DNA from: Aphrocallistes beatrix
Lineage: Eukaryota > Porifera > Hexactinellida > Sceptrulophora > Aphrocallistidae
Assembly: GCA_963281255.1 (NCBI GenBank)
Contig: OY725501.1
Span: 1,837,674-1,901,673, forward strand
DNA length: 64,000 bases
Reading direction: 5' to 3'
Both the position numbers and the translations under genes were made by a program. Below, in pieces: positions 7,656 through 38,565 of this stretch (position 1 is the first letter of the stretch; each line of letters opens with the position of its first letter). The notes beneath the pieces were generated by a model. It did no database searches and was not told the DNA's origin. It saw only the letters and a list, made by a program, of their open reading frames with translations.

Positions 7656-8654
7656 TAAATAAAAATTGAGGCCTATGATCGCATTCCCAAATCATTTTTA
7701 ATTGATATTCATTGGACAGATCGAAGGTCAAATTTCAGAACTAAGGACAATATCAACATTGAGCTCGCAGGACTTATTATCCGAAGCCTAAATATCATCT
7801 TTGCTAACCAATCGCAATATGTCGGGTAAAACTGAAATGAAAATGTCATATTCAAGTAAATTCAAGTGAAAATCTATCAATATTCAAGTGAAAATCTATC
7901 AATAAATATCGTATGGGTAAAAGGTTTACTAGTATAAATTATATTCTATTTACTAAAATGACAAATTTAAAGGGTGACATTTGGTTTGTCATTTTTATAA
8001 ATTTGATAACTGGTACAATTACACAATTGCATTGCATCACCTTACTAAATCTTAAAATTAGGAAAAGGTCCTTATTGTAGCTTTGTAGATCTCATTGAAT
8101 GATGGAGGTTGAGCTATAGTACAAAGTAGTAAAATCGAACCAAAACAGACCAAATTGAGCTTATTAGCCTGTGATAAGATAAGTTCTAAGTGACCCGCAT
8201 TTGAAGCTCGAAACCCACTGACCAGCATTAGGTATTTCAAAACCTAAATTATTCTCTAAAATATGCATTTCACACAAATTTACTAAATCTGAAGGTCTTT
8301 ATCAGAGTATCTTGTACTTTTTTAAAACATGTACGCACCTAAAATATGTATATATTCTGAGTCAGCGTGATTTCAGTGATTGCACCAATGGTCAAATTAT
8401 AAAAATGGAGGTTAAAATATCCTGAATTATAAAATCAGATCTATAAATTGATTACTAAATTAGCTATTATAGTTAAATTCGAACAGTAGATGTTATATAT
8501 TTTTTTAAAAATAATAATTTAATATTAAATACAGATAGAATGGTGACTAATACGTATAAGTAGAAAGAATGAAAATACATAGACAAAGGTATCACATTCA
8601 AATAGTAAAAAGTTATAAAGCTATAACAATCTGTATCGAATAGAATGATATTGG
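7656..8654. other. No recognisable feature
   Basis: AT-rich sequence with short local duplications such as 'ttcaagtgaaaatctatcaa' twice near 7855-7900. The short minus-strand frame near 8058-8240 matches nothing I know. Confidence 0.45.
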
Positions 8655-9125
8655 GTCATTCCATGCGAAACAACAGCCCTAAATCCCCAATATCTCAGAA
8701 TGGCTTTATACTTGTAATTAGTATGTGAGATATATCACTAAAGGTATAAAAAACTATATAATATTATTTATTTATTGCAAGTTGTTTTTGAAATACCCCC
8801 CTTGTTGAAAAATTTGTAGTTTTTTTTATTTTTTATGTTGGCATCTACGTCACAGCTCCCCAAATCATCATAATGTAGAATATTTACTCATCAAGCGTAC
8901 CAAACTTCTACACCAGTTTATATACATAACAAGTAATTTTTGGTGAAAGTTTTAGATAATATCTCCTACTTTTTCTTCGAGATGAGGGGCTTAACAGCAG
9001 GAATATCTGTATTTTGCTGATTGATACAAATATGACCAAAACTCGATGTCTCCTTAGGTTGAGAACTAAATCTCCAATGACATTTTATTATGGTATATAT
9101 GTTTCACAATTGTGTTGATTTATAG
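8655..9125. mobile_element. GGGTCATTCCAT terminus, possible end of family X element
   Basis: The sequence begins GGGTCATTCCATGCGAAAC and continues with 'atatctcagaat' and 'cttgtaattagtatg'. This parallels the end of the foldback element at 14998, which begins GGGTCATTCCATGTGAAAT and has 'catctcagaaattcttgtaatttt'. It lies downstream of the family X gene on the minus strand, so it may be the 3' terminus of the element that carried it. No matching opposite end was found beyond 24 kb, so the link is an inference. Confidence 0.4.
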
Positions 9126-9780
9126 CAGTGATTCTCAAAGTGGGACGTAGAGCCCCCTAGGGGGCGTTGGAAGCTTATTGGGGGGCGGCTATACCTCAAG
9201 GGGGTGCTACGGGGTTTAGTAGCAAAGTATCCGACAAAGATTTAACCAAAGTGGTAACATGATATTATTGAAATTAATAACCAATAACCAGTGTTAATAA
9301 ACAATTGTTAATACTATCAGTTTCAATTGTTGATAATTTATCAATAACATAGTTACACTGGTGATGGCTTCCCTGATAAGAATAATCATGATCACGATTT
9401 TGTTTTTTCATAACAAATCAATATGTCTTAACTATATAAATAAGCTAATTAAATCGAACCATTAAACTCGATCACGGAATATGGCTAGTAAAAAGAAGTG
9501 CAGACAGTATAGTGCTGAATATATCAAATACGGCTTTGTGAAATCTCCGTGCAATGAGCAGCTTCCAATGTGCTTGCTCTGCGATCAAGTATTTTCTAAC
9601 GAAGGAATGAAACCTTCAAGGATGATTGTTCATTTAAAATCACGACAATTACATTCTATAAATTTTATAGAATGTAATTTAAGCTATTTCCAATTTAATC
9701 AGCGATTATATGTAATTGTCGGACAGGAGTCCCCTTTTGAAATATTTCTGTGTAATAAAATTGATGTCTGTATCTAGTCT
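9126..9780 (+). mobile_element. hAT (ZBED/Charlie-like) 5' fragment with BED finger
   Basis: The start CAGTGATTCTCAAAGTGGG followed by the 'ccccctagggggcg' block is a well-known hAT terminus. From the ATG at 9481 a frame gives MASKKKCRQYSAEYIKYGF, then 'PMCLLCDQVFSNEGMKPSRM' and 'HLKS', which is the BED zinc finger start of ZBED5/FAM200-type hAT proteins (C-x2-C, then H). Similarity stops near 9650. No catalytic domain and no 3' terminus are present, so only the 5' end survives. Confidence 0.75.
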
Positions 9781-10014: not shown

Positions 10015-10916
10015 TTATGATAGCTGATATGCCCTTCCATTTTTACAAATCTGTGGTGGCTGAATGAGTCCATGAATATCGTCAACAGGGATCCAACACA
10101 AAACTTCACTTTGTGGCCAGTTGAAGTATTTTGATGGTCCATTAGGGTGAATAAACTTGATTAAGACATCTTGGTACTCGAAAGAAACTTCTCTTAGATA
10201 CCAATCCACCAATCGTCATCATAGGAACATCCCACAAATTTTCCAGGACTGCAGTTCCATAGAGATACTAATGGGTGAAGAATTGTATTCTCATTTAATG
10301 ATATTCATGAGGAATCAAATATTCCGAAATTCTTTTAACAGTTATATCGCCTGTAGCATTTGGAATAAAACAGTGATGACTTCTAATACCTGGTATCTTT
10401 TTAGCCCCTTTCGCTTCGACTGCCCATTTGATACATAGAAGAATTTAATACCTCTAATATTTGAAATACACCACTCAAAAAGTTGCTTTGAATTTATGAT
10501 TTGACCAGAGGTAACTAATTTAAACTGGCCCTAGAAGGCTCCCTTTTACAAAACCACCAATACCCTCAGATGCATTTTTTCCATGTGACGTCTCAAAAAA
10601 ATGCCACTCCGCCTTCAAACCAAATTCACTTTCATGATAGAGAAGATTGCTAATGTTTTTGAAGTTCATATATTGTTTAGCAGCTCCATCAGTGAAATAA
10701 AAAAGCTTCGACAATTGAAGATGTGTTTGCGATATATATTTAAGAATTTCTTTAATAAAGCTGTGTATTGCTATTGCGTCATGTGTCAAACAATCACTAT
10801 TCACACACATGAAGCGTATTTTGCAAATTTCTTCGTTAGGTTCTCTATAATACATTGCAAAAGGGTGGATGGTCGACTGGGAGATAACTATTCCGATGGA
10901 AGCCTCGTACGGCGTC
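10015..10916 (-). pseudogene. Family X, C-terminal part
   Basis: Minus-strand remnants of a protein family seen in many invertebrate genomes as uncharacterised proteins; I recognise it from memory, not from a search. Order: 'STIHPFAMYYREPNEE', 'NSDCLTHDAIAIHSFI', 'LFYFTDGAAKQYMNFKNISN', 'LKAEWHFFETSHGKNA', then a damaged middle, and finally 'VDWYLREVSFEYQDVL' to the C-terminus 'CKNGRAYQLS'. Acidic residues in the TDGAAKQY and KAEWHFF motifs could belong to a DDE-like core. The gene is cut at 10916 by the Harbinger insertion and resumes at 14372; inside this part there are several frame changes. Confidence 0.6.
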
Positions 10917-10919
10917 CTG

Positions 10920-11275
10920 GGGCCTTATTCTCAGATCGACTTAAACTTAAACTTAACTTAAACTTAACTTAAACTTAACTTAAACTAAGTAATTACTTAG
11001 TTTTCATTAAGTTTTCTTGACTATACTTATACTTAAATCCATACTTAGTTTTTTGGTGGAAACTAAGTAAAAACTAAGTAAATACTTAGTTTTTGCGTCG
11101 AACTTAAGAACTACTAAGTATTTACTTAGTTTTTATTAAGTTTTTTTGACTATACTTATACTTAAATTCATACTTAGTTTTTTGTTGGAAACTAAGTAAA
11201 TACTTAGTTTTTGCGTCGAACTTAAGAACTGCTAAGTATTTACTTAGTTTCTACGTCAAAATGATGACAAGATAA
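10920..11275. repeat. Harbinger left subterminal repeats
   Basis: The terminus is followed by 'taaacttaact' repeated several times. Many alternating direct and inverted copies of ACTAAGTATTTACTTAGT and 'acttagtttttgcgtcgaac' then follow. They match the arrays at the right end (about 14000-14368) and are probably transposase or Myb-protein binding sites. Confidence 0.75.
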
Positions 11276-11352
11276 ATCAAATTGGATATAAATAGTTCGT
11301 AGAATTAAACTAAGATTATCAATTCGAATCAATAACTTGTATTTCTTCCGAT

Positions 11353-12402
11353 ATGGCATTTGCTCTGTTCCTACTTGAAGTCAATACAGACAATAGTTTG
11401 GCAAATCAAAGGGTATTTAGAGATCGGTTAAATCCCATCGACTCATACAACGATGTTGAATTCATCAACCGTTACAGGATTACCCGTAGCATATTCATTC
11501 AACTCCATGAAAAAATTGCAGGATATTTTCTCAAACCAAGAATATGTAGTTCACATCCGATTCCAAGTATAACCCAATTTGCTGTTGCATTACAGTTTCT
11601 GGCGACAGGTTCTTTCCAAACAGTGATTGCAACTTCACATGGCGTCTCTCAATCTTCAGTGTCAAGGTGTATTGCAGCTGTAACTGATGCTCTCTGTTCA
11701 ATTGCCAAGGACTATATAAAATTTCCAAACCTCCATGAACAATCCCAAGTTCAGCAATCTTTTTTAGAGAAATGCGGATTCCCTTTGGTCATAGGATGTA
11801 TTGATGGTTCACATGTATCAATAGTTGCACCATCGAATAATGAAGAAGTATATGTGAATCGGAAAAATGAACACTCCATAAACATCCAAGCCATTTGTGA
11901 TAGTAATTTGAAATTTATGGATGTTGTCGCGAAATGGCCTGGCAGTACTCATGATGCTTTTATCTGGAGACAGTCAGGCATCAATCAAGGAATTACCAGC
12001 GGGGATATTCCGACTGTGCGTGGATGGTTCCTCGGTGACAGTGGGTATCCTTTACGACCCAATTTATTGACACCCATCCAAAATCCGAATACGCCGGGAG
12101 AAAGAAGATACAACCGTTCTTTTCTGAAGTCGCGTAAAACAATTGAGTGCGCATTCGGTTTATGGAAGAGCCGTTGGAGGTCAATGCACAGAACGGGAGG
12201 TACACTTTGTTATGCACCGGAGAGGGTTTGCAGACTCGTTATTGCCACCATGGTGCTGCATAACATTTGTATCGAGCATGGATTGCAGTGGGAATCAGAA
12301 TTTGATGTTGGTGGAGAGGAGGATGAAGAAACTATATTTCATCATTCTACCACTAGTGGCACTGCTGTTCGCCAATCTGTAATTGATCAGTATTTTAATT
12401 AA
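11353..12402 (+). CDS. PIF/Harbinger DDE transposase
   Basis: 349 residues, uninterrupted, close to the usual 350-400 of HARBI1-like transposases. It catalyses cut-and-paste of the element in the nucleus. An N-terminal helix-turn-helix-like region (about 60-110, 'VIATSHGVSQSSVSRCIAAV') is followed by the DDE core. The triad is visible as D151 in GCIDGSHVSI, D229 in FLGDSGYPL and E265 in RKTIECAFGLWKSRW; D201 in WPGSTHDAFIW is also conserved in the family. The C-terminal tail is acidic. The ATG at 11353 lies about 75 bases after the left subterminal repeats. All key residues are present, so it may be active. Confidence 0.93.
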   Translation: MAFALFLLEVNTDNSLANQRVFRDRLNPIDSYNDVEFINRYRITRSIFIQLHEKIAGYFLKPRICSSHPIPSITQFAVALQFLATGSFQTVIATSHGVSQSSVSRCIAAVTDALCSIAKDYIKFPNLHEQSQVQQSFLEKCGFPLVIGCIDGSHVSIVAPSNNEEVYVNRKNEHSINIQAICDSNLKFMDVVAKWPGSTHDAFIWRQSGINQGITSGDIPTVRGWFLGDSGYPLRPNLLTPIQNPNTPGERRYNRSFLKSRKTIECAFGLWKSRWRSMHRTGGTLCYAPERVCRLVIATMVLHNICIEHGLQWESEFDVGGEEDEETIFHHSTTSGTAVRQSVIDQYFN

Positions 12403-12539
12403 TTACTCTTATGATATGTGAGACTATAAGCACAGAGATACAACTAGATATTTATCACAAATATGCTTAATTATATTGACAGTTATTCCAATCTCTAATT
12501 CTTGTACTAAGTTTCTAATACAGGCAACGTATAGGCAAA

Positions 12540-13379
12540 CTAATCCTTTTCCTGCTGCTGGTAGAAAGGAGGTAGTGTTGGAAAATATTGTTGCTGTTGG
12601 TATCCCTGTGGTAGATGAGTTGAAGGAGGTAGATGAGGCAATGGATTAGGAGGTTGCATTCCGGAAGAGATCATATTTGACATCAAGTTTATTAGTTTAT
12701 TCTGATTGGAAATCAACAACTCCAATTTACCAACCATTAGTCCTGTGCTAGATGTCATATTTTCCGCTATTACCTCAAGTTTGGAATCTATTCTCTTCAG
12801 AATCTCGACTTTTTGTCTTTCATTCTCCAGAATGCCTTCCTTGAAAGGATCAGTCACTGGGATTTCATTCAATTTCCTCTTCCTTGCAGGTGGCTTCATT
12901 GCAATCTCAATCTCTGAACCTGATTGTGACCCAAGATCCTGTAATGTTCCTGCTGGACTAATAGCCATATCAAGATCGCTCAAAGGACTGTTAGTTCCCA
13001 TTGAAAGGTCTATCCCAGCTTCGATTCCTTCAAAGATTTCCTTTCCCTTGATAGACCTTATCTTTGTTTCCAGCTCCGTCAGCTCAGCTTCAGCAGGTCC
13101 ACCTCCTGTTTTCCTCATGGATGCCAGTTTGTCGCTGATAATTGGTTTGTATTTAACCAGAATGTTACACCATTTTTTGGAAACATCCTCTTTGGTTCGT
13201 AGTGTCCCATGCTCTTGCGAAATTGAATTAGCAATTTGTTCCCAGATACAGTTCTTCTCATCAAACGTTAGAGTTGAACTAAATGCGCCAAACAGTTTTG
13301 GTTTATTTTCCAAGACCAAATCAACTAGGGTGGTGATTTCAGAGTTGGAAAAATTCTTTGCTCGAGTTTTAATGGACAT
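12540..13379 (-). CDS. Harbinger Myb/SANT-like DNA-binding protein
   Basis: 279 residues, uninterrupted, opposite in orientation to the transposase, with about 140 bases between the two stop codons. Residues about 8-75 look like the Myb/SANT-like domain (Myb_DNA-bind_5 type) of Harbinger partner proteins, with 'FSNSEITTLVDLVLENK', 'IWEQIANSISQEHG' and 'KKWCNILVKYK'. Next comes a lysine-rich helix, a basic patch PPARKRKLNE that may be a nuclear signal, a predicted helical segment (about 185-235), and a proline- and glutamine-rich C-terminus. In known Harbingers this partner carries the transposase to the nucleus and the ends; that role here is inferred. Confidence 0.88.
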   Translation of the reverse strand: MSIKTRAKNFSNSEITTLVDLVLENKPKLFGAFSSTLTFDEKNCIWEQIANSISQEHGTLRTKEDVSKKWCNILVKYKPIISDKLASMRKTGGGPAEAELTELETKIRSIKGKEIFEGIEAGIDLSMGTNSPLSDLDMAISPAGTLQDLGSQSGSEIEIAMKPPARKRKLNEIPVTDPFKEGILENERQKVEILKRIDSKLEVIAENMTSSTGLMVGKLELLISNQNKLINLMSNMISSGMQPPNPLPHLPPSTHLPQGYQQQQYFPTLPPFYQQQEKD

Positions 13380-13436
13380 TGGTGGAGATCTTGTAGTTTG
13401 AAATTATTCTCCATACTTTCTCTGTGTTTTATACTC

Positions 13437-13915
13437 AATTTTTCATTAATTTGTAATAATAATATTGGTTATTACATCAAAGCACTACTATGTCAGTTAT
13501 TATTCAGCAGCTTCATGTTTACGTAAGATATTGAGTGATGAAGACATTCTTATCCGGTGTAAATCAAATCAATGTCTTAAAACCATACAACATTAATGGT
13601 GACTACAACAAATAAATAGAGTTCTAATTGCGATAAAATTGGATCGTATTGTGTTCTTAGTAATAGTTAATATTATACCACAATTTTCTATTAATTTGTG
13701 ATAATAATATTGGTTATTACATCAAAGCACTACTATGTCAGTTATGATTCAGTAGCTGTTTACGTAAGATATTGAGTGATGAAGACATTCTTAATGCGGT
13801 GTAAATCAAATCAATGTCGTAAAACCATACTACATTAATGGTGACTACAACAAATAACTAGAGCTCTAATTGCGATAAAATTGGATCGTATTGTCTTGCC
13901 AATAATTAATATTAC
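13437..13915. repeat. Tandem duplication in Harbinger, about 240 bp x 2
   Basis: The stretch from 'tttcattaatttgtaataataatattgg' to 'gcgataaaattggatcgtattgt' occurs twice in a row (about 13440-13680 and 13684-13915) with a few differences. It lies upstream of the Myb-like gene, in its probable promoter. The derivative at 54376-55090 carries only one copy. Confidence 0.8.
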
Positions 13916-14371
13916 ATTTATTTTCACAAATTCCCCTTTTGCAAGGATGTAAAATAATACTTTCTTCATAAAATTGTGAGTTAAGTCACCTTCGAAGTCG
14001 ACTTAAAAAATAAATAAATTTAAGTTAAAAACTAAGTATAGACTAAGTAAATACTAAGTATTCCACCAAAACTAAGTAAAAACTAAGTAAAAACTAAGTA
14101 TTTACTTAGTTTTGCTCTGTGAATACCAACTTAGTTTTTGCTAAGTTAACCGTACGAATACTTAGTTTCTACTTAGTTTTTACTTAGTTTTTGATTGAAA
14201 ACTAAGTAAAAACTAAGTATTTACTTAGTTTTGCTCTGTGAATACCAACTTAGTTTTAGCTGTCTAAGAGGATAAAATACTTAGTTTATACTTAGTTTTC
14301 AATCAAAAACTAAGTTTTTACTTAGTTTAAGTTAAGTTTAAGTTTAAGTCGATCTGAGAATAAGGGCCATG

Positions 14372-14942
14372 GACTACAAATTTATAATTCACTGAGAAGT
14401 CTAGTAATATTATTATACAGGGTGTTTCAGCGATTGTATCACGAAAATAATTTGAAATTACTAGGTAAATATTTTACTAATCATCTTCCCCTTTTACGAT
14501 GTTGCTTAGCACCTTCTGACATTTGTGTGACAGCAAAATGGACAAGCTAGTTGACAAACAGAAGAAGATCAAGATGGTGGAATTCTACCATAAAAATCAG
14601 TCCTATTCAAGACTACCCCACACTTCTAAGGTTTCCCCGCCCAAAATGACTTAATCGGAAATGAGTTGTCCCATATTGAAGATGTTTTGAAATAATTTAC
14701 TTTTATTCCAACTGTTTGCTTCATTGTTTTTCATAAATGTCAAAGGATTTCCTTTCAAAAGCAACCAAAATAACTAAATTATCTCAATTACAAATGAAAT
14801 GAAAGCTTTACTTTTGTGTGTAATCGATGAAACACCCTGTAGCTTCATGAAGTTCCAGATTTTCTATCAAATAATTCAAAAAAGAAGATTGATTTTTTGC
14901 GATGTAATGATGTGTAGTCAATCTATCAATTTCAGATATTAA
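14372..14942 (-). pseudogene. Family X, middle part (interrupted)
   Basis: Minus-strand reading of 14842-14942 gives 'LISEIDRLTTHHYIAKNQ' and 'FLNYLIENLELHEA'. After the mariner-type MITE at 14418-14839, the reading of 14372-14415 gives 'DFSVNYKFVVH', and the Harbinger insertion follows. These join the C-terminal part at 10916 in family order. Upstream, the gene is broken by the Tc1-type MITE at 14945. Confidence 0.6.
14418..14839 (+). mobile_element. Mariner/IS630-type MITE with N-terminal transposase scrap
   Basis: 422 bp with ends CAGGGTGTTTCAGCGATT and AATCGATGAAACACCCTG between TA dinucleotides (14416-14417 and 14840-14841). From the ATG at 14538 a short frame reads MDKLVDKQKKIKMVEFYHKN, like the first helix of an IS630/mariner transposase. 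The rest of the gene is gone, so this is a deletion derivative. It is inserted in family X. Confidence 0.8.
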
Positions 14943-16189
14943 TACACTAAGCGGACAAAAGTATTTCAACACTTGATTCTTTCCCATACAAATAGTAGGG
15001 TCATTCCATGTGAAATCGACCAATTCGACCAACTGTTCCATGTCGAGCATCTCAGAAATTCTTGTAATTTTGCCTGTAAGTTTTGCATACTAGTGCATGA
15101 TCATTTGTACAATATCAGCTTTCAATACCTTTTGGTTTTATAATTATAGCCATTTCAAAATTTGACGATTTTTATAGTTCGGACACTCTTGTTTTAGAGG
15201 CCCCTTAATTAAATGTGACATATATCTTTCAATTCTTAACTTAGATGTCCAGTTTTTTTACTGGTTGTTAATCATACAGTTACCTAATATTCTTAGCTAA
15301 ATTTAGTATTCTTATTGCCTAGTTTAGATTTAATTCTTCTTATCTAAACATATATTTTCATCAATTTATCAAAAAAATTTCAAAATAATAATTCTTCATG
15401 TCTCCAATGGTTTAGAATTTGCCTATTTACTTTTTAATTTTGCTCTATATATGTACAATCTTCCTGGTAAATTTCATGGCTTACATCAGTTGTTTTACTG
15501 TTAAATTCCAAACTATTTTAAATCATTCCAAATTTCAAATTTTCCTGATGCCTACGAATGAAGCAGTCTGAAATAATTGATATTCGTTTCTATTTCTTAG
15601 TCCTACAGTTATATAGATATTCTTTCTCCAGTTGTGCGGATTGTAGTTGAAATTTGTGTGTGTTTTTATCACTTGTACTATATATTAGAAGTATTTGTAC
15701 AAGTACTAATAATCTTCTTTTTTCCTAATATTGTAAAACGATTATCTTCTTAATTTCTTTAGTTATCAATATGTCTAGCTTTCTATTAACAAAATAATTA
15801 ATAGATTGTTCTGTTTATACACATAGCATGGCAACGTTTCGTTACCATCCAAAACTTGTCAAATGTGGTTTCTAATTCGGGATCAAATTTCATCTGCACA
15901 ACTTTGCATATAATTAAGTATTGTAATAGTAATCCATCTGAGGGTTCAGTTTATTTCGCATAGCATGGCAAGTTTATGTTGTTATGTAAAACTTGCCAAA
16001 TACGGTTTCTATTTCGGGATCGAATTCCAGCTGCACTACTTTGTATATCATGGAGGATTGTCATAAGTATTGTAATAACATAAATACTTTGGTGTCGTTG
16101 TATAATTATGCGAAAACTGTAATCATTAATAATTCAGATTTATATAATTTGTTCTTGTCTAAAGCAATATGGATATTCCAGGGTGTTCT

Positions 16190-16600
16190 GTTGGTATAAT
16201 TTATACGAAAATTGCCACAAAACGAAATAGGTTAGAAAACAAGGCCTTAAGAAAATATCTGATCTCGATAATGATGCAATGCATCTTTTGGAGATCAGAG
16301 CTGGTCACATCTTTACACAAGAAATTGATACAATCTGTCTTCATCATGAACAAGATGATATCTCAAAGTGATCCAGTTAGCAGTTAGCTTGCTGTGACCC
16401 ATGGCAGTTGCACAACAAAAAAATAGTACAAATACCTTAAAACTCTGAATACTTCATTAGCAGACGCTCTAAACAATATCATCCCAACAACAAATGAGTT
16501 TACTATAAAGCCAGATCAAAAGTTGTGCTATCAATGCTTCGATAAATTTTCTTTGCGAATTTAAAAAAATTCACTTAGCAATGAAATTAATTGGATTGCT
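16190..16600 (+). pseudogene. Family X, N-terminal fragment inside the foldback
   Basis: Plus-strand reading, with frame changes, gives 'IRAGHIFTQEIDTICLHHEQ', then 'CDPWQLHNKKIV', 'LADALNNIIPTTNEF' and 'IKPDQKLCYQCFDKFS'. The same order of Cys/His motifs is seen at the start of the family X gene at 23.5-24.0 kb ('SCNPWKLHKKYV', then a Cys pair). It is probably a zinc-binding N-terminal domain. Its place in the unique centre of an element with GGGTCATTCC ends suggests that such elements carry family X. Confidence 0.5.
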
Positions 16601-17014
16601 ATAAAATTAATTCATTATCTGCAAAGTAGTGCAGCTGGAATTCGATCCCGAAATAGAAACCGTATTTGGCAAGTTTTACATAACAACATAAACTTGCCAT
16701 GCTATGTGTATAAACAGAACAATTTAATAATTATTTTGTTAATAGAAAGCTAGACATATTGATAACTAAAGAAATTAAGAAGATAATCGTTTACAATATT
16801 AGGAAAAAAGAAGATTATTAGTACTTGTGCAAATATTTCTAATATATAGTACAAGTGATAAAAACACACACAAATTTCAACTACAATCCGCACAACTGGA
16901 GAAAGTATATCTATATAACTGTAGGACTAAGAAATAGAAACGAATATCAATTATTTCAGAGTGCTTCATTCGTAGGCATCAGGAAAATTTGAAATTTGGA
17001 ATGATTTAAAATAG

Positions 17015-17199
17015 TGTGAAGGACGATAAGAACAACTGAGTAATAACAAGTCTAAGTGTATCTAGCCAAACACAATTAAGAAAACTAAGTGGGATGAACA
17101 ATACATAAATTGCTAGTCCTAATTAACTAACTAATGCGTAACAAGTTCTACTAGCTAATGGGTGTATACTAAGTAGCTAAATAAATCAACGATATGACA
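17015..17199 (-). repeat. LTR (3' LTR of the minus-strand gypsy element)
   Basis: 185 bp starting TGTGAAGGACG and ending GATATGACA in plus orientation, nearly identical to 22066-22250. The internal side (17200-17216) is the polypurine tract when read on the minus strand. Confidence 0.92.
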
Positions 17200-19074
17200 T
17201 CACTCCCCCTTTTGAAATTTCTAGTCCGGTCACTAATCTGCTATGTGCATTACCCATTCCCCGTAGCGGTCTGGGGGCTTGCTTTCTCTAGTAGAGCGCC
17301 TCAGCTGTTGTCCTGTGGGTAGATCTACGTTTTCTCCGAAGGTTGTACTCCTGGACAATTCTATGCAAGTATGGTCGGACTGCATATCAACAGGCTCTGT
17401 CTCGGTTTCAAGATCTTCAGTCGGCGTACTCGTCCCAATTTCACTGGAGGCGGGTTCTGGAGCTGCCTTACACATGTTTAGGTGTACAACGCGCATACTA
17501 CCCCTTCCAGGTATCCTGAGGTGCAAATTGACTCCTCTCTTCTCGACGACCTGCCAAGGCCCACGGTACATAGGTGAGAGCGAATCGGGTCTTGCCTCAT
17601 TCCGAACAAGTACCCAATCACCCTCCGTAACAGCAGACTTATGAGTGCCTTTGTCGTACCGTGCCTTCATCTTCCTCCTAGCGATCTCTGAGTTGGTGTT
17701 TACTTCCTCGTAGGTGTCTTCGTTCTTTACTTTGATGTTTTCAAAGTAATCCTTTGCACTTGCGTAGCCGCTTATCTCAATTTGGGGTAGGGCGGCGTCG
17801 ACCACAGTACGTAAAGGAACCCCGAACATTACTTCATTAGGCGTTAGGCCGGTGCTTGAATTATTCTGCGCGCATTATGTACGAAACAGACTTCCCTTAA
17901 GAGTTTCGGCCAGTCTGTCCGACTCATTTCTCTCTCTGCGAGGAAGCATCGCATCGTTTGCTTTACCGACTGAATACTTCGTTCAGCTTCGCCGTCCCCT
18001 TGAGGGTGGTATGGTGACGAACGGACCTTCTCAATCCCAAACCGTTTGCATAGCTGTCTCACGAGGGCGCCATCTACATTCTGACCCTGGTCTGAGAGCA
18101 GTACCATAGGGTACCCGTGCCTAAGGAACCATCCCGATTCTAGTGCCTCAGTAACACTCAGGGCAGATTGGTCCTTCATTGGTACCGCCTCCACGTACTT
18201 CGAGAATACATCTACTATGATCAGAACATATCGGTACCCGTTCATTGACCAAGGTAGAGTGGCTATGTCACAAGCGATCATGGCACGAGGAAATTTGTTT
18301 TTCGGATTGACGGGCACGAGAGGCTGTCTGCGGGTTTTGCACCTCTTGTTCTCTAGGCAAATCATACAATTTCTGCAGGTACTCTCAGCGTCGGAGTGCA
18401 TTCCTCTCCAGTAAAAACGCCTCTTCAGCTCTTCGATGGTCCGCTGGACCCCTCCGTGAAAGGACCGATGTACCAATGTCAGAACAATCTCGCGGAGTGA
18501 TGCTGGGACCACGATACGGTTTCTGCGATAAAGGATCCCGTCCTGAATTCTCAGCCCAGAACATTTCTTTAGCTGACCTGAAACAACTGTTCCGTTCCTA
18601 TGGAGCTGCGCTATTGCGTCCGACGTCACCTTGTCGAGTGCTTGTTCCTCGATTAATCTTGACGCCAAATCCGCCTGAGCATCCATGTAATGTCTAGGGT
18701 CGTCCTCGTTTGTCATTAAGTAGATGTGGTCTTCAAAAAATTCTGTGTCGTCATTTGCGGTGGGGTCCAGTCCTGTTGCAATTCTGCTCAATCGGTCAGC
18801 AGCGAGGTTCTCTATCCCCCTCCTATAACACACCCTGTAGTTGAGGGGCTCGAGCTCAAGAATCCATCTAGCATCTTTACCTCTAGGATCTCTCTGTTTC
18901 CTGAGCCATTCCAGAGGGTTATGGTCGGACCAAATAATAACCTCGGCAGCAGCTTGCAAATACTTCCACCACTTCCGGGCGGCTGCCACTATCGCCCACA
19001 CTTCCCTCTCTCCTACGCTGTATTTCTGTTGAGTGGGGCTCAACGTAGACGAAAAGTATGCGATCGGTCTCAAC

Positions 19075-19517
19075 CAGGGTTGGGTTTTGTCCGTCCAAAA
19101 CAGGTTTTGGACAGGGCAGTGGACAAAACCTGGTTTTAACCGGTTAAAACCGGACAAAACTGGACAAAACCTAATGGAAACTGTAAATCATTGCAGTGGG
19201 TACGAGACAGTTTAAGATGGAAAGAGAGTGAGGACAATGAATGGATTTTCTTGCTAACTCCTGTTTATTACTATAACTATATTTTGTATTCGATTTATCA
19301 TGGAAGCCACGAACAACACTTGGACAAAACCTGGACAAAACCTGGACAAAACTTGGACAAAACTTCGATATAACTGTGAATTTATGAATTAAATTAAATT
19401 TTGAGGTTTTGTCCAGTTTTGTCCAGTTTTGTCCACCCAAGAGGTTTTGGACAGGACGGTTTTAACCTGGTTAAAACCACTAGGTTTTGTCCAAGTGGAC
19501 AAAACCTGCCAACCCTG
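19075..19517. mobile_element. hAT MITE, 'GGTTTTGTCC' family, copy 2
   Basis: 443 bp starting CAGGGTTGGGTTTTGTCC and ending GGACAAAACCTGCCAACCCTG minus the first base, with a perfect 8-bp target duplication GTCTCAAC (19067-19074 and 19518-19525). It is inserted in the polyprotein region of the gypsy element, so it is the innermost and latest event here. The interior has four consecutive 'tggacaaaacct' units near 19320 and the complement near 19405. Confidence 0.92.
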
Positions 19518-22065
19518 GTCTCAACTGCTTCTGAGCTTATTCTTGAGCCAACACCCCTCCCACGGCGTAACCAGAGGCATCAACCTCCAGATGGAAGGGC
19601 TTTTCCCAATCAGGAAAAGCCAGAACCACAGGTGCGCAAGCTAGCACCTCACAAAAAGTCCGGTAACTATGTTCACAACTGCTATCCCAAAACCGTGGGA
19701 CTCCCTTCTTCGTGAGTTTGAATAGCGGTAACGCGATCTCGGACATATTGGGAATAAACTCTCTGTAATAATTGACCAAGCCCAAGAAAGATCTAAGTTC
19801 CCTTAAGCTCCTCGGTCGAGGCTGTTCCTTTATCTTTGCCACTAGGCTGGGCAAGGGTTGATAGCCATCCTTGGATACTAGGTGCCCAAGGAATTCTATC
19901 TGGTGGAAAGCGAACGCACATTTATCTCGACGGAGCTGCATATTAGCAGTGCGGTAGCACTCCAGGACGGCGCGAAGATGACTAAGATGGTCGTCGAAGG
20001 TACGTGAATAAGTCAGGGTATCATCTATGTATGGGAGACTATTGGTAGCTCCTCTAAGGGTGGAGTCAATTGCACGCTGATACGTAGCCTGGGCGTTGCA
20101 CAGTCCAAATGGCATGACACAGAACTCAAATTGGCCCCGAGGTGTCGTGAAGGCTGTCTTCTCTTTGTCCGACTCCAGAATAGGGATACTCCAGTACGCG
20201 CTAGCGCCGTCTAGAGATGAGAAATATTTGTTTCCCTGTAGCTTATCTAATATATCTTTTATATCTGGGAGGGGGTAAGAGTCCTTCTTAGTCTGGTCAT
20301 TGACTGCACGATAATCGACGGCAAATCTGTATGTCTTGTCCTTCTTCTGCACTAGGATAACCCTGCTAGCCCAAGAGGAGGAGGAGGGTTGGATGACACC
20401 GTTCTCTAACACCTGGGTCACCTGAATGTTTATTTATTTCTCGACCTGTGGAGATACCTTTACATTCCTGGCCTTGATGGGTTGGGCATTCCCAGTATCG
20501 ATTACATGCTGAGCGTACTTGGCGACACTGGGCTTCTTAGGATTCACAGCAAAAACGTCATCAAATTCTTCCAATAACGCCATTAATCTGGTAGACTCCT
20601 GGTGAGTGATATCCGGATTTATGTTCCACCTACTAGCTGTGCATGTGTTGGTGCACAGTAGGTCGCTGGTAGTAGTTGCTATAAGTTCCGCCCGAGTTAA
20701 TGCTTGACCGCCGATAATTGATGCTTCAGAATCCACTCAATGCTTCCCGAGTCTAACTTTGTGATTAGTCCAATCGAATTCGGTGGACCTAAATTTCGTA
20801 AGGAAATCTCTTCCTAGTATGACTGTAGGTTCTGGGCTGTCCAACACTATAAACTTGTGTGATATGATCAGGTTGTCTCCGACATCTACCCATATGTCTC
20901 CCTCACCTAACGTCTCTATTGGCGTCGCGGACACTCCGTGTAGCGTACTGCGTCTGCGTCTGTCTGCACCCAGTGCCGATAGCGTTGATGGACCGGAGGT
21001 CTACAACTGATGGTTGAGCACCGGAATCCAGGAGGGCTCGGGTACGGTAACCATTCAAAGAAACCCTTACTACCACTCCAGACTGTCCGCTGGGTGTATC
21101 ACGTCGGTTTGGATTAGTTTCCCCGAGTGTCATAACCGGCTTAGACGAGAAACAATCCCGCCGATGGTGGCCCTGCTTGCCACACTGCTGACAATATTGC
21201 CGCGGGCACTTACGCTGAAAGTGTCTCGTGTCGCCACATCCGTAACATGCGGGTGGTTTCACCTGAAACTTAGTCTCCTTGACAGCAGCATAAGTATACT
21301 TGGATGGTCTACTCGGATAGTTCCGACGTCTAATCGTGTTTATGCCTTCTCTCCAAGTAGCTTCCTCCTGCTTGGTGTGATACCCCACGGGTGGATCGTT
21401 CTGTTTTGAGCCCTCTTCGCTCTCACTCTTCACGTATTCTTGTACTGGTATCCTCTCGCTTGCGCTTGTCCGTACCTCGAGTATGCGGTTCAAGTCCCTA
21501 TTACCTTGATCGAGGGCTATGCCTCGTTCGGTAAGTGTCTTGCGGACCATAACGATAAAATCCCGCGCAATGGGCTTCGTGACATCCTCTCGGGCTGCTA
21601 TCCACTCTTTTAGTGGATTCTGTGCAGGTTGGGGCATCTGACTGATCAGTACGAGACAAGCCATTCGCATGGGGGCCTCGGCGTCTACTGAGGCGGCACG
21701 GAGTTCATAAAAATAATCATCAACGGGAACTCCTGCTTCCCATTCCTTGTGGCATAGCGTAAGTAACGCTTGTTGAGGGTCGATCGGAGGATCCAGGCAT
21801 CTGAATAGAGCTTGAAAAGCGGAATCTAAGTCCTCTGACTCGTGTACTATGTCCTTGACAGTTTCTTTCTCCGCTAGCCTGCGACAAACATAAACAGGCA
21901 AAAGTCCTATCGCTAGTTTCTGTCCCCCTTCCTGTGTCAATAGGGACGCCACTGCGGACCGGAAGAATTTCTCCCAACTCGCTATTCTCTCGCCAGGCTG
22001 GAGTGGAGGAATATTAAAACCACCGTAAGGGTTAGCCATCTCAGTGTTGTAGTTTTCTTAATTTA

Positions 22066-22250
22066 TGTGAAGGACGATAAGAACAACTGAGTAATAACAA
22101 GTCTAAGTGTATCTAGCCAAACACAATTAAGAAAACTAAGTGGGATGAACAATACATAAATTGCTAGTCCTAATTAACTAACTAATGCGTAACAAGTTCT
22201 ACTAGCTAATGGGTGTATACTAAGTAGCTAAATAAATCAATGATATGACA
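22066..22250 (-). repeat. LTR (5' LTR of the minus-strand gypsy element)
   Basis: 185 bp, one difference from the other LTR. Transcription of the element should start here and run toward lower coordinates. Confidence 0.92.
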
Positions 22251-23124
22251 ATAGTTTGGAATTTAACAGTAAAACAACTGATGTAAGCCATAAAATTTAC
22301 CAGGAAGATTGTACATATATAGAGCAAAATTAAAAAGTCAATAGGCAAATTCTAAACCATTGGAGACATGAAGAATTATTATTTTGAAATTTTTTTGAGC
22401 TAAGAATATTAGGTAACTATATGATTAACAACCAGTAAAAAAACTGGACATCTAAGTTAAGAATTGAGAGATATATGCCACATTTAATTAAGGGGCCTCT
22501 AAAATAAGAGTGTCCGAACTATAAAAATCGTCAAATTTTGAAATGGCTATAATTATAAAATCAAAAGGTATTGAAAGCTGATATTGTACAAATGATCATG
22601 CACTAGTATGCAAAACTTACAGGCAAAATTACAAGAATTTCTGAGATGCTCGACATGGAACAGTTGGTCGAATTGGAATGGAATGACCCAGTACTAAATC
22701 GGATTTTTTCATGAAGGGGAATACGTTCAAATTTAAAGAGATACTAAAAATCTGATTTCAGGTTCGATATCTACACATTCGAATTAGTCATAGTTCAACA
22801 TAAATAATAAATTACATAACTCAATGAACAATCTTATCAGCCTGAGCCACCACCATAGGTAATTCATTGCCATCATATATAGTGGTCAAAATGGGTGTAT
22901 GTGGCATAAAGTGGCACTGATTGATAATTGCAAAAAGTTAGGAATTAATGATTAATTAGAAAAATTAACCTGTGACTAATTTGAATGCGTATTATTAGAA
23001 ACTGGAATCCGATTAGCTGCATCCCATACCGTTTAGAAGTAACCCTCTTTATGAATAGACCCATTTTAATATTATTTGTTTGAGAAAGAATCAAGTGTTG
23101 AAATACTTTTGTCCGCTTAGTGTA

Positions 23125-24010
23125 TATATATATATATACAAACATTTCCAGTTTTAATAGTAAGGATAAAGTCTTTTTTTCCAGCTAATATACGAGAGTA
23201 ATCTTCACTTTCATAAAACTCATACTCTCTCGGTTATATTAGCAAGTAAAGATCTTCTAGATTTAGGAAGGAGCATTGCTAGTATTCCATTTTCGGACTG
23301 AAGAATTCTGGCTTTCCTTATCATGTGACCTGAAATACAGAATTCGTTCTTTATCTTCTCAACACTCCAACTTGATGGTATTAGAGTGAGCAATTGAACT
23401 TTTTCGTTATTACTAGATGCCGTCATTATTTTTGCTTTGACAGCATGTAGAATTTCGTCAAGATCAGCACATTGTTGACAAAAGGATTGTTCTCTAAGAT
23501 CTTCTTGATTATCACAGATCAAGCTCGAAATAGTTTTAGAAGAAACTGCCTGAATGTTCTCTCACTTTCGCTTTCCATAAGTAATTTTCCTCTTCATTGT
23601 TAACCTGGGCAGCTTTATTGGGGTACAACCTAACTGTATTAACCCCTCATTAATACGGCATTTTCCGAGTTCCTTTTCGTAAACTTCAATATCAGTATTG
23701 TCAGGTTCCGATGAGTCTTCATCTGATTGGGATTAACACATTTGTTCGGATAGAATCTCCAACTTTTTGAGAACAATCATAGCACATTTTCTGACCAGGT
23801 TTAACTGATAAACTGCGGTAAATTTATCAGTATCAGATAAACCTATGCTTTTAACAGAGCGATAAGATACATACTTTTTATGCAACTTCCACGGATTGCA
23901 GGAATTTAATTGCCAATCTGAGTATTTGGTTTCCTAGAATATTTCAGCTTGTGACACTCTTCTTGAAGACATTTTCATATCGAACATTCTTCTGGACTAG
24001 CACCATACAT
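23125..24010 (-). pseudogene. Family X, N-terminal part
   Basis: Minus-strand reading shows 'SRRVSQAEIF' and 'SCNPWKLHKKYVSYRSVKSI', a Cys-containing segment, 'CRINEGLIQLGCTPIKL', and 'MKRKITYGKRK'. After these come 'LREQSFCQQCADLDEILHAV', 'VQLLTLIPSSWSVEKIKNEF', 'HMIRKARILQSENGILA', 'SRRSLLANITERV' and, out of frame, 'KKDF'. This is the known N-terminal layout of family X: a Cys-rich domain, then a helix-turn-helix-like 'PKSWS..KI..EF..S..M..KA' block. The next, Cys-rich part of the family is missing where the Tc1-type MITE begins. There are frame changes upstream of 23.52 kb. Confidence 0.62.
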
Positions 24011-24227: not shown

Positions 24228-24510
24228 TCAAAAAGCCATAGCCTACAACATATAAGGCCTCACATAACTTTCGGATTTTGGACTAGGGATGCGGTAGAAG
24301 ATTGTTGAACTAATACATGAGATCAGTCTCCATATCCGTATCCATATCCATTGTTAAAATTTAGATTAGTCATCATATGATTGCGCAATAGGTTATATTT
24401 GTGACAAATATAGTGATTTTCAGAGGCCTTTTAAGGGCACTTCTAACTGTTTTTATTGAAAAGTTTTTGCCATAAAACTGAGCTATGAATGGTTTGATGT
24501 GAAAAATTTT
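24228..24510 (+). mobile_element. Foldback family E, half copy
   Basis: Starts 'ccatagcctac.acatataaggcctcaca' and runs through 'ttgcgcaataggttatatttgtg' to 'ggcacttctaactgtttttatt'. This matches the left arm of the complete foldback at 33.99-35.05 kb. The inverted arm is absent here. Similar half copies lie at 52885-53215 and 55711-56093. Confidence 0.65.
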
Positions 24511-24640: not shown

Positions 24641-24771
24641 ACTTCATTAGTCATATCATTTGACAACTACATGCCAATTTTCATATCTCTACGACTTGCC
24701 AATTATTCAATCAATTCGGAAAAACACACAAAATTCTAGCGTTTTAATATATAAGATTGTGCGCAGATGTA

Positions 24772-25632
24772 CACTAACCGGACAAAAGTATTTGGACATT
24801 ATATTATTTCCCAACAATTAGTACAAAATTAGATCTTTTCATGAAGGGAGATGCATTCGAACTCTAAGAGATACTAAGAACCTGATTTAAGATTCGAACT
24901 CTACACATAGGCGGAAAGTACGGTGGTGCAGGTGGTGCAAGTGCACCACTGACACTCTGAAATAAAAGTGTCAGTGGTGCAAGGTGGTGCAGGTAGTTTG
25001 TCTATATTGTGTGTATAACATGGATTAATAGTGTTGATGAAACCGACAGATTCATTACTAGATCGATATTGTAACTAATATATTTAATTCACTACTAGTA
25101 TGGCAGGAACGAAGATTAAAATTACCTTTTTCGATGTTGCACTATCAACTACTACATACGTACTATGTATATACAATATGACATATAGTTTAGAAAGTGT
25201 AGTAACGAACTGAGAATTTTAAAGGTATTGGTCCTATAAAGATAGCTGAATTGAGGTGCACCACTGGCACTTTTGATAACAAGTCAAAAGTTTGCGCCTA
25301 TGACTCTACACATTAGTAATAGTCAAATTATATCAACCAATAAGTAAAATATCAACCTGTGGCACAAGAAGTAATTCATCACCATCATGTATAGTGGTAA
25401 ATAGTGACATATGTAGCACAATGTGGCAGTGATTGACAATTTGAAAACATTGGGATTTAAGATTTCACTAGAAACATTCTACTATAACTAATTCGAATCG
25501 CAGATTTCGAATCTGAAATCCGATTAGTAGTATCAGTTACCGTTTACGAGTTTTGATCTTAATGAATAGACCTATTAAGTATTAAAAGTGCGTGAAACAA
25601 TGAAGTCTACAAATACTTTGGTCCGGGTCGTG
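24772..25632. mobile_element. Tc1-type MITE, copy 2
   Basis: 861 bp between TA dinucleotides (24770-24771 and 25633-25634), left end CACTAACCGGACAAAAGTAT and right end 'actttggtccgggtcgtg'. It aligns with copy 1 along its length apart from a nested hAT element at 24906-25302. Its unbroken sequence at 24815 shows the target site used by the foldback element in copy 1. Confidence 0.8.
24906..25302. mobile_element. hAT MITE with CATAGGCG ends
   Basis: 397 bp with ends CATAGGCGGAAAGT and AAGTTTGCGCCTATG and a perfect 8-bp duplication ACTCTACA (24898-24905 and 25303-25310). Near the left end is a strong hairpin built from 'gtgcaccactgacact' and its complement, with repeated 'ggtggtgca'. No gene. 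Confidence 0.87.
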
Positions 25633-33984: not shown

Positions 33985-35050
33985 ATCACGAACCATACCC
34001 TACTGTACATAAGGCCTCACAGTAACTTGCGGATTTGGGACTAGGGATGTGGTAGAAGATGGTTGAACTAATACATGAGCTGCCTTAATCATTAACAAAG
34101 CACATTAGACCTTAGAAATGTATTACCAGCATATATGAATTTGGTATCAAAGTACACAAATCCGTTGTTAAATTTAGATTAGTTACCATATGATTGCGCA
34201 ATAGGCTATATTTGTGACAGATTTGGTGATTTTCAGAGGTCATTAAAGGCACTTCTAAGTGTTTTTATTACAAAATTTTCCGTAAAAAACTGAGATATGG
34301 ATGGGTTAATACGAAAAATTTGTATTTTTTTCATGGAATGTTGTTACATTCCAGTGTTGCTATGGAAACGTGTTTTGGTCAGTGAATATACTAATTCCTA
34401 TTAAGCGATAATATAATTTCGACGTCTAAATTCAATGATTTACGAAATATTCGACAAATTAACAAATGTGACCAATATGATAAATTGTCTAATATCTCGT
34501 AAATCATTGAATTTAGACGTCGAAATTATATTATTGGTTAATAGGAAGTAGTATATTTCCTATCAAATGGAATAACATTTGAATGTCTAGCTATCGTGGT
34601 TTTCAAGATATAACCCCGACTGACCAAAACACGTTTCCATAGCAACACTGGAATGTAGCAACATTCCATGAAAAATTACCAAATTTTTCGTATTAAAACC
34701 CATTAATATCTCAGTTCTATGCGAAAAGTTTTATAATAAAAACACTTAGTTACAAAAGTCATAAATATAACCTATTGCGCAATAATATGGTAACCAATCT
34801 AAATTTTAACAACGGATATGGGTACTTTGATACCATATTTATATATGCTGATAACAGTGGCATAGCCAGACGTTGATCTCAACCTGGGACACCTGGGGCA
34901 CTCAAATATTTCAGCGGGCCTGCTATGCAGAAATACTGAAGCGGTGGGGTCCATACCGGGACCTCAGCTTCGCTAACCAGGGCCTGGCCCCGGCTCCCCA
35001 CCCTGGCTACGCCACTGGCTGGTAATACATTTCTAAGCACTATTGTGCTT
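33985..35050. mobile_element. Foldback family E, full palindromic copy
   Basis: The left arm starts 'ataccctactgtacataagg' and the right arm ends in its complement. They meet at an inner palindrome centred near 34480, where 'aaatcattgaatttagacgtc' and its complement face each other. The right arm is interrupted at 34855 by a hAT MITE. Arms include the conserved 'attgcgcaatag' and 'cacgtttccatagcaacac' blocks. No gene, and no target duplication identified. Confidence 0.75.
34855..35017. mobile_element. hAT MITE, 163 bp, GC-rich
   Basis: Ends CAGTGGCATAGCCAG and CTGGCTACGCCACTG, a very common hAT terminus. The flanking octamers GCTGATAA (34847-34854) and GCTGGTAA (35018-35025) differ at one base. 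The high GC stands out from the AT-rich foldback it interrupts. Confidence 0.87.
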
Positions 35051-36287: not shown

Positions 36288-36766
36288 AAATGCTTTCTAA
36301 TCGAGCTTTCTAATCGAGTTCATTGCTAACTCTAATTGTCATAAATACGAATATATCGATAATGGAGTATACCCGGTGTGTCATTGTATTTTCTCATAAG
36401 ATTGGAGTTCATTCGACTATTTTTTTGTTAATTATTAATTAAACCGTAGTATTTCATGGCATTCTTGAGTAAATTCGAATTGAAATAAGAGTTGTGGTAC
36501 AGTGTGAGTTGTTACAAAAGTGATTAACTTCATATCTTGTTTCAAAAATATCGTCCATAATAGTATATAAGCGCGCTTCGCTTGCTTGAGCTGCGGGGCT
36601 GGCAAACACTTTGTGTCCGCTGGAGGCGCTCTTCGGGCGATTGGGGTCACATTGATTAATTATTACTAGAGATAGCATCTCTAGATACCTCTGTCCTACT
36701 GCTATAATCGATATCGCACAAAAATCACCAAATTTGTCAATTTTTAAAATTTAATGCGTAATGATG
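36288..36766 (-). repeat. Inverted repeat, left arm (to the gap)
   Basis: Reverse complement of 38047-38565, nearly exact apart from a 40-bp segment present only in the right arm. The arm includes an HeA tail and body (36565-36766, minus strand) and reaches the edge of the assembly gap. Its outer end matches the first 90 bases of the 780-bp tandem unit. Confidence 0.85.
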
Positions 36767-36966
36767 NNNNNNNNNNNNNNNNNNNNNNNNNNNNNNNNNN
36801 NNNNNNNNNNNNNNNNNNNNNNNNNNNNNNNNNNNNNNNNNNNNNNNNNNNNNNNNNNNNNNNNNNNNNNNNNNNNNNNNNNNNNNNNNNNNNNNNNNNN
36901 NNNNNNNNNNNNNNNNNNNNNNNNNNNNNNNNNNNNNNNNNNNNNNNNNNNNNNNNNNNNNNNNNN
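36767..36966. other. Assembly gap, 200 N
   Basis: A run of exactly 200 N, probably a gap of unknown size, placed in the loop of the inverted repeat at the inner end of the left arm. 36967-37315 beyond it holds no recognised gene. The sequence 'ctcccccacttatggagg..tactgta' at 37295-37322 looks like a pogo-type end and recurs at 47455-47482. Confidence 0.95.
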
Positions 36967-37315
36967 GATTCCTCAATTGACAGTTGCATTGTAACAGGTA
37001 ACATTGCCCACCCTGAATTTCCCCCCCTGAATGGTAACATTGCCCCCTTCCATACTATAAGTTAACAATTATACCACCTAAGTACCATATTAGGAAGAGG
37101 AGTTTTCTAAATGTAATTGTGTAACTTATAAAACTCAACTGGTACATTAATGGGTGTGTTATATGTACTATGTACTATGTATTTTCTGAAATTCTACAAG
37201 TTTCAAATAGGCTGTTAGATGTTCTCATCTAGAAAATTATAATTGAATTTTAACCGGGGAATGGGGGATAAACCAGTTTTATCCCGTCCCATGCTCCCCC
37301 ACTTATGGAGGTTAT

Positions 37316-37495
37316 ACTGTAATTACAATTACCCTGAAAAAGTCAGGGTAATTACAATTACCCTGAAAAAAGTCAGGGTAATTACAATTACCCTGAAAAA
37401 AGTCAGGGTAATTACAATTACCCTGATTGAACCAGGGTAATTACAATTACCCTAAAAAAATCAGGGTAATTACAATTACCCTGATTTTACAGATA
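37316..37495. repeat. Palindromic minisatellite, about 30-bp unit x 6
   Basis: Six units each hold 'agggtaattacaattaccct', itself almost a perfect palindrome, separated by 'gaaaaaagtc' or variants ('gattgaac', 'aaaaaaatc'). The CCCTG..CAGGG pairs form a second hairpin between units. Middle units are identical; end units diverge, as expected for unequal exchange. Confidence 0.88.
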
Positions 37496-37531
37496 CCCTG
37501 TAACATATATATATACTAGTATATCTATATA

Positions 37532-37687
37532 CAGTCGACTACGCTTAATAGGAACCACTGTTTAATCGGGTCAACCGCTTAATCGGGCCACTTGTGGCAG
37601 GACCGAAATAGCTCTCACGCATAGAAGCTAATGCAGAATATTTTTGGATAATAGGGTTTTCCACTTAATCGTTAAAATGTCAAACTG
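37532..37687 (+). mobile_element. Pogo-type MITE fragment
   Basis: Starts 'TACAGTCGACTACGCTTAAT' and continues 'aatcgggtcaaccgcttaatcgggcc', the alternating pattern of pogo-type termini. It is joined directly to the 5' end of an HeA copy at 37688. Confidence 0.5.
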
Positions 37688-38255
37688 TCTTTACTATTAA
37701 AACTCGAATAATGTAAATACACCATATATGTATATACAAGTACGTATATATATCAGTAATGAATTGATTGAAGAAACTGCCAGACACAGAAAGCTGATTT
37801 TGGCATGTGGGAGTCTTTTGGCTATGGATCCACTAAGTTCAGACCTCTGATGAAAATGTCAATTCATCATGGAATTATGACATCATTGTCACCTTTTTAA
37901 TAATTAGAAATTTTAGTTTTTCAATCATAACTCATCCATTTTAGGGGATAGAAGGCTGAAATTTTAATAGACTGTGTATATTATTATACCTCACATATGA
38001 TACAACTATCAACCAAAAATGATGACTCATTACTCTGTTATGACGTCATCATTACGCATTAAATTTTAAAAATTGACAAATTTGGTGATTTTTGTGCGAT
38101 ATCGATTATAGCAGTAGGACAGAGGTATCTAGAGATGCTATCTCTAGTAATAATTAATCAATGTGACCCCAATCGCCCGAAGAGCGCCTCCAGCGGACAC
38201 AAAGTGTTTGCCAGCCCCGCAGCTCAAGCAAGCGAAGCGCGCTTATATACTATTA
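37688..38255 (+). mobile_element. HeA repeat copy, full length
   Basis: Starts TCTTTACTATTAAAACTCG, then a TA-rich run, the 'ttgattgaagaaactgcc' head, the body with 'atgacgtcatcattacgcat', and the GC-rich hairpin tail ending CGAAGCGCGC at about 38245. The last 200 bases are mirrored in the inverted arm at 36565-36766. Confidence 0.72.
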
Positions 38256-38565
38256 TGGACGATATTTTTGAAACAAGATATGAAGTTAATCACTTTTGTA
38301 ACAACTCACACTGTACCACAACTCTTATTTCAATTCGAATTTACTCAAGAATGCCATGAAATACTACGGTTTAATTAATAATTAACACGATTGATAGCAT
38401 ACAACTAGTGCATAAATTCAATTAACAAAAAAATAGTCGAATGAACTCCAATCTTATGAGAAAATACAATGACACACCGGGTATACTCCATTATCGATAT
38501 ATTCGTATTTATGACAATTAGAGTTAGCAATGAACTCGATTAGAAAGCTCGATTAGAAAGCATTT
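38047..38565 (+). repeat. Inverted repeat, right arm
   Basis: Matches 36288-36766 in reverse. Contains an extra 40 bp bounded by direct repeats AATTAACA at 38380-38387 and 38420-38427; the left arm has a single AATTAACA. The outer end runs 90 bases into the first 780-bp tandem copy. Confidence 0.85.

Follow-up and report, generated by a model that had tools for sequence, protein, structure and literature searches.

A foldback DNA transposon of Aphrocallistes beatrix with decayed coding remains of a putative transposase that may belong to the Sola superfamily

A foldback DNA transposon with long inverted arms was delimited in the DNA analyzed in this study, a window of 64,000 nucleotides from contig OY725501.1 of Aphrocallistes beatrix, and its unique centre contains decayed coding remains of a protein family that is termed family X here. 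We consider it probable that the foldback element arose by deletion from an autonomous element that uses family X as its transposase and that most likely is a member of the Sola superfamily. The proposal of the preliminary description of this DNA that an element with GGGTCATTCC ends and a 4-bp target duplication (TSD) has family X as its protein is well supported by sequence comparison, since homologous coding remains are located inside a bounded element and a related end is present near a second copy of family X. The respective data comprise one bounded element and a second family X copy with one end only.

Results

The coordinates of the foldback element, of the second family X copy and of the insertions in both are compiled in Table 1. 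The foldback element spans about 7.7 kb as it stands and 2,452 bp once an internal LTR element is subtracted. The exact 12-mer GGGTCATTCCAT was detected three times in the window, at positions 8653-8664 and 14998-15009 on the plus strand and at positions 22678-22689 on the minus strand, with a chance expectation of 0.0046 according to the base composition of the window. The 18-base end GGGTCATTCCATGNGAAA is common to positions 8653 and 14998, the expectation from base composition being 4.8e-6. When up to two mismatches were allowed, GGGTCATTCCAT yielded six matches compared with a mean of 5.1 in shuffled sequences, and 38 of 100 shuffles reached this number; since the count is at chance level, weight was placed on the exact matches only.

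The exact pair of inverted ends is flanked by AGTA on each side, and a sister MITE near 24770-24908 contains a single AGTA at the insertion point of the foldback element and represents the empty site. An alignment of the filled site, reduced to one AGTA, with the sister MITE comprised 113 identities, 26 mismatches and one gap. Because AGTA is present at both flanks and occurs once in the sister MITE, the 4-bp duplication is well supported for this one insertion, and the preliminary description was correct with respect to both the inverted ends with their AGTA duplication and the empty site. The arms of the foldback element, 939 and 858 bp in length, yielded a local alignment with 822 identities, 32 mismatches and 89 gap positions, and the innermost 90 bp of the arms are 81% alike.

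Most of the interval between the two ends consists of an LTR retrotransposon of about 5.2 kb that is absent from the earlier account and that we take to be of the Gypsy type. The 185-bp LTRs of this element (17015-17199 and 22066-22250) are identical at 184 of 185 positions, a 4-bp duplication ATAG was found at the element, and the detected domains include RVT_1 (reverse transcriptase), RNase H, H2C2 (zinc-binding) and rve (integrase). The foldback element was itself inserted into a MITE, presumably mariner-like, the bounds of which are approximate owing to AT repeats.

Table 1. Features of the foldback element, the second family X copy and their surroundings (window positions; a dot denotes that no strand is assigned)
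Feature	Position	Strand	Basis or remark
Transposon end of related sequence, GGGTCATTCCATGCGAAA, with the element interior on its right	8653..8670	+	about 1.65 kb past the family X C-terminus
Family X copy, candidate core and C-terminal remains: FTDGAAKQY, KAEWHFFETSHGK, SEGIGG	10325..10882	-	end at about 10325; tblastn E 1.7e-38
Harbinger-like element inside the family X copy	10914..14374	.	
Piece of the family X copy with the first Asp of the candidate core (IILLDFSVNYKFV; codon 14399-14401)	14375..14415	-	weak alone (tblastn E 5.9), at the expected place
MITE within the family X copy, ends TACAGGGTGTTTC	14416..14841	.	
Family X copy, piece ahead of the candidate catalytic core (ISEIDRLTTHHYIAKNQSSFLNYLIENLELHE)	14842..14935	-	
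MITE with TACACTAAGCGGACAAAAG ends, host of the foldback insertion	14936..23131	.	related copy near 24770
TSD AGTA, left	14994..14997	.	flank letters and empty site
Foldback (long-TIR, non-autonomous) DNA transposon	14998..22689	.	ends and arms
Left arm, 939 bp	14998..15936	+	local alignment of the arms
Unique centre of the foldback element, 655 bp	15937..16591	+	arm alignment
Degraded coding sequence for the Cys-rich N-terminus of family X	16163..16561	+	window-internal homology for 16381-16425 and 16502-16546
Right arm, inner part	16592..17014	-	arm alignment
Gypsy-like LTR retrotransposon in the foldback right arm	17015..22250	-	LTRs and domain matches
Right arm, outer part, ending ATGGAATGACCC	22255..22689	-	arm alignment
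TSD AGTA, right	22690..22693	.	flank letters and empty site
N-terminal part of the family X copy, with a Cys-rich segment, an acidic linker and a helical segment	23165..23933	-	stops and frameshifts present

The coding remains in the centre of the foldback element read CCDPWQLHNKK and, in another frame, IKPDQKLCYQCFDKF. When translated in six frames and compared with the N-terminal part of the second family X copy in three frames, with only the window sequence used, the centre showed two collinear matches. The centre sequence QLACCDPWQLHNKKI (16381-16425, plus strand) matches QLNSCNPWKLHKKYV (23868-23912, minus strand) with a score of 53, and TIKPDQKLCYQCFDK (16502-16546, plus strand) matches SVKPGQKMCYDCSQK (23764-23808, minus strand) with a score of 55. 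None of 500 dinucleotide-preserving shuffles reached a score of 53, the maximum being 50, and a one-frame version of the comparison gave the same maximum and no such score in 300 shuffles. The two matches are located in different frames in both copies, with starts that are 121 bp apart in the centre and 104 bp apart in the other copy, and therefore a frameshift or an intron lies between them in each case. These data confirm the earlier view that the centre carries the N-terminal Cys-rich domain of family X, albeit in decayed form; the stretch of the centre ahead of position 16381 presumably belongs to family X as well.

The second copy of family X is a minus-strand pseudogene that extends from position 23933 to about position 10325 and is interrupted by three insertions, two of them MITEs and one a Harbinger-like element. 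A putative family X consensus was used as tblastn query against the window and matched the core and C-terminal piece with an E-value of 1.7e-38 and the N-terminal piece with 4e-27. Because the putative consensus matches these pieces, family X is, as judged by homology, a real family; it is presumably common in animal genomes and mostly entered as uncharacterised proteins. Stops follow the core in 10325-10882, and about 150 residues of the putative consensus are absent between the first and second pieces, so that the copy formerly regarded as a full gene is a broken pseudogene with stops and three insertions. The Harbinger-like insertion encodes a DDE_Tnp_4 transposase in a long open frame (11314-12399, plus strand) and a Myb-like protein (12543-13403, minus strand). 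Many ACTTAGTTTTT repeats were observed close to both of its ends.

The related end at position 8653 faces the family X copy. From base 19 on, its sequence departs from that of the foldback ends, which suggests two families within one group. According to its position and orientation, this end would belong to the second family X copy. The terminus of the same type that had been reported past the C-terminus of family X was thus recovered as a correctly oriented related end, and an opposite (right-hand) partner was found in the window neither by a mismatch search nor by alignment. A reading frame that begins with MASKKKCRQYSAEYIKYGF is located between this end and the family X C-terminus (9466-9774, plus strand); it presumably resembles the start of ZBED/hAT proteins.

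Three acidic residues that might form a catalytic core are retained in the second family X copy, namely the D of IILLDFS (14399-14401), that of FTDGA (10688-10690) and the E of SEGIGG (10565-10567). The last of them is D in the putative family consensus, a D/E position of the kind found in DDD/E enzymes. A single-sequence AlphaFold2 model of the core (120 residues) had a mean pLDDT of 50.7. Its strands and helices follow one another as b-b-a-b-a-b; the third strand ends with the second D and is followed by a short additional helix. This predicted order hints at an RNase H core without its first strand. A Foldseek search with the core model yielded 539 matches with E-values up to 10, none of them with E <= 0.001. 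The two best matches were RNA polymerase subunits, and the best 50 of the 539, many of which repeat the same protein, included 12 Argonaute and seven herpesvirus terminase matches, both of which we take to be RNase H-like in fold. Together with the fitting succession of predicted strands and helices, the three acidic residues make a DDE-like core of family X plausible. With regard to the DDE-like core suggested previously, D, D and E are found at fitting places, and the structural part of the argument is left with a pLDDT of 50.7 and no significant Foldseek match. The model of the helical N-terminal piece (23561-23223) had a mean pLDDT of 58.0, and none of its 46 Foldseek matches showed E <= 0.001, which gave no support for a helix-turn-helix.

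Relatives of family X were also searched for among viral and prokaryote contigs, and none was found in these collections. Searches of IMG/VR with two proteins resulted in 12 and 16 pattern matches, none of which was confirmed, and a DNA pattern for WHFF-TSHGK had no match in IMG/VR. A TIR pattern detected nine IMG/VR loci, each of them with GGGTCATTCC once; these loci were taken as chance because an opposite copy of GGGTCATTCC is missing from them and tblastn detected nothing in them at E up to 1. The HGKGxCDG pattern is present at 24 loci in IMG/VR and at 82 loci in GTDB contigs, and a search of the GTDB contigs by alignment gave 30 pattern matches without a confirmed one. A tblastn comparison of the putative consensus and the window core with the 115 collected loci yielded nothing better than E 1.1. 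Five of the 82 GTDB loci with the HGKGxCDG pattern originate from one MAG, Poribacteria ARS61, which we assume to be sponge-associated; they resembled host contamination at first sight, a reading that was rejected in view of their GC content of 64-67% and the lack of a tblastn match.

Several additional features were observed elsewhere in the window. The stretch 58117-61764 contains a Pif1-type helicase (59096-61231, plus strand) and, after it, a weak match to an OTU-like protease just under the cut-off (61195-61761); the stretch is presumably part of a Helitron. The inverted arms at 36288-38565 are 100% complementary (36426-36766 with 38047-38387, and 36288-36433 with 38420-38565) and adjoin a gap of 200 N (36767-36966); these arms are possibly an assembly artefact. 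A tandem array is suggested in the region 38626-40495 by identical short matches that recur every 780 bp (38926, 39706 and 40486). A palindromic element near 34.3-34.7 kb (34014-34860) has arms with CAACATTCCATGAAAAA, and its flank resembles, by eye, the sequence 24256-24500 upstream of the family X copy. The reading frame 56594-57184 matches the STPR repeat domain with an E-value of 2.1e-08.

Discussion

The organization of the foldback element would be explained by an internal deletion in an autonomous, family X-encoding element that left the ends and a small part of the N-terminal coding sequence in place. Family X would represent a transposase that starts with a Cys-rich, presumably zinc- and DNA-binding domain and continues with a helical segment and a D, D, D/E core of RNase H-like type. 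This protein would bind the GGGTCATTCC ends and excise the element, and reinsertion with a 4-bp stagger would give rise to the AGTA duplication seen here, the foldback element being a non-autonomous cut-and-paste derivative that is moved in trans. The link between family X and the ends would provide uncharacterised animal protein entries with a testable transposase role, and short elements with GGGTCATTCC-type ends would become assignable to a parent. If the match to Sola is true, the outcome is a plain annotation; if not, family X is a candidate for a new superfamily.

The preliminary description had placed family X in an undescribed group, and the corresponding explanation, in which family X is the transposase of a superfamily outside the approximately 20 recognised ones and the foldback element a non-autonomous member of it, now appears rather unlikely, as the 4-bp TSD, the long TIRs and the candidate D-D-D/E core agree with Sola as characterized in the excerpt of PMC10741241. 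It is in keeping with an unrecognised superfamily that a Pfam scan of the window core detected no family at E up to 1 and that the putative consensus gave seven weak, unrelated matches, all below the cut-offs, but this absence says little, as Sola itself is perhaps without a Pfam model. No solved relative with a credible score was obtained by PDB sequence searches, one of which returned no match and the other two weak, unrelated ones with E-values of 0.03 and 0.43. Six family X peptides were not found in literature text, and among the literature matches listed for GGGTCATTCC none is about transposons by title. The duplicated AGTA is moreover unlike the AT-rich Sola2 targets given in the excerpt of PMC3627910. 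The more specific notion of a DDD/E transposase from an unclassified superfamily, characterized by 4-bp TSDs, GGGTCATTCC ends and a distinct type of Cys-rich DNA-binding domain at the N-terminus, is regarded as unlikely.

The centre of the foldback element contains an N-terminal scrap of family X only, and DNA transposons are known in general to capture gene pieces. Family X might be a host gene or another gene from which an unrelated foldback transposon, mobilized by a different transposase, picked up a fragment. An end of the same type is nevertheless present near the second family X copy in the expected orientation, and the acidic residues and the predicted strand order suit a transposase, which makes gene capture quite improbable.

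A 4-bp TSD is made by Ginger elements as well, whereas the 2-bp TA of Tc1/mariner and the 3-bp TSD of Harbinger differ from the 4-bp AGTA of the foldback element. It is highly improbable that the element belongs to Ginger, Kolobok, piggyBac or a similar known superfamily, as the 4-bp TSDs of Kolobok and piggyBac are TTAA-specific according to the excerpt of PMC9587614, in contrast to AGTA, and Ginger possesses a Gypsy-like integrase (excerpt of PMC10741241), whereas no rve domain was detected in the family X pieces and the sole rve match among 17 scanned stretches of the window is that of the LTR element. Kolobok resembles the foldback element in the 4-bp TSD, the 5'-RR start and a DDD/E transposase, as predicted for family X, and is ruled out by its TTAA-specific TSD as defined in PMC9587614. 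The excerpt of the same source lists C/DxxH between the second D and the last E as a signature of hAT, P, MuDR, Kolobok and Dada. An inspection of DGAAKQYMNFKNISNLLYHESEFGLKAEWHFFETSHGKNASE by eye, in a single degraded copy, revealed no H with C or D three places ahead.

Long inverted arms, as found in the foldback element, are typical of foldback elements such as Galileo and Tetris of Drosophila. Galileo is a member of the P superfamily, for which the excerpt of PMC5199201 gives a TSD of 7-8 bp, compared with 4 bp in the foldback element. Within Sola, the Sola2 elements of two amoebae have 4-bp TSDs with AT-rich targets (AWWT; ATAT, AAAT, ATTT) and inverted repeats that measure 12-13 or 21 bp (excerpt of PMC3627910), and the foldback element differs from them in its AGTA target and in its arms of more than 850 bp. 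Members of Sola1, Sola2 and Sola3 were found by profile in a survey of bivalves (excerpt of PMC10294476). The excerpt of PMC10741241 describes Sola by DDD transposases, a 4-bp TSD, TIRs of 11-1124 bp, a size of mostly 2-9 kb and occurrence in metazoa. The foldback element corresponds to this description in the 4-bp AGTA on both sides of its one insertion, in the length of both arms, in its size of 2,452 bp and in its metazoan occurrence, and the candidate D-D-D/E core of family X would agree with it too. On the basis of this likeness to the published description, the known Sola superfamily is a fairly likely home of family X.
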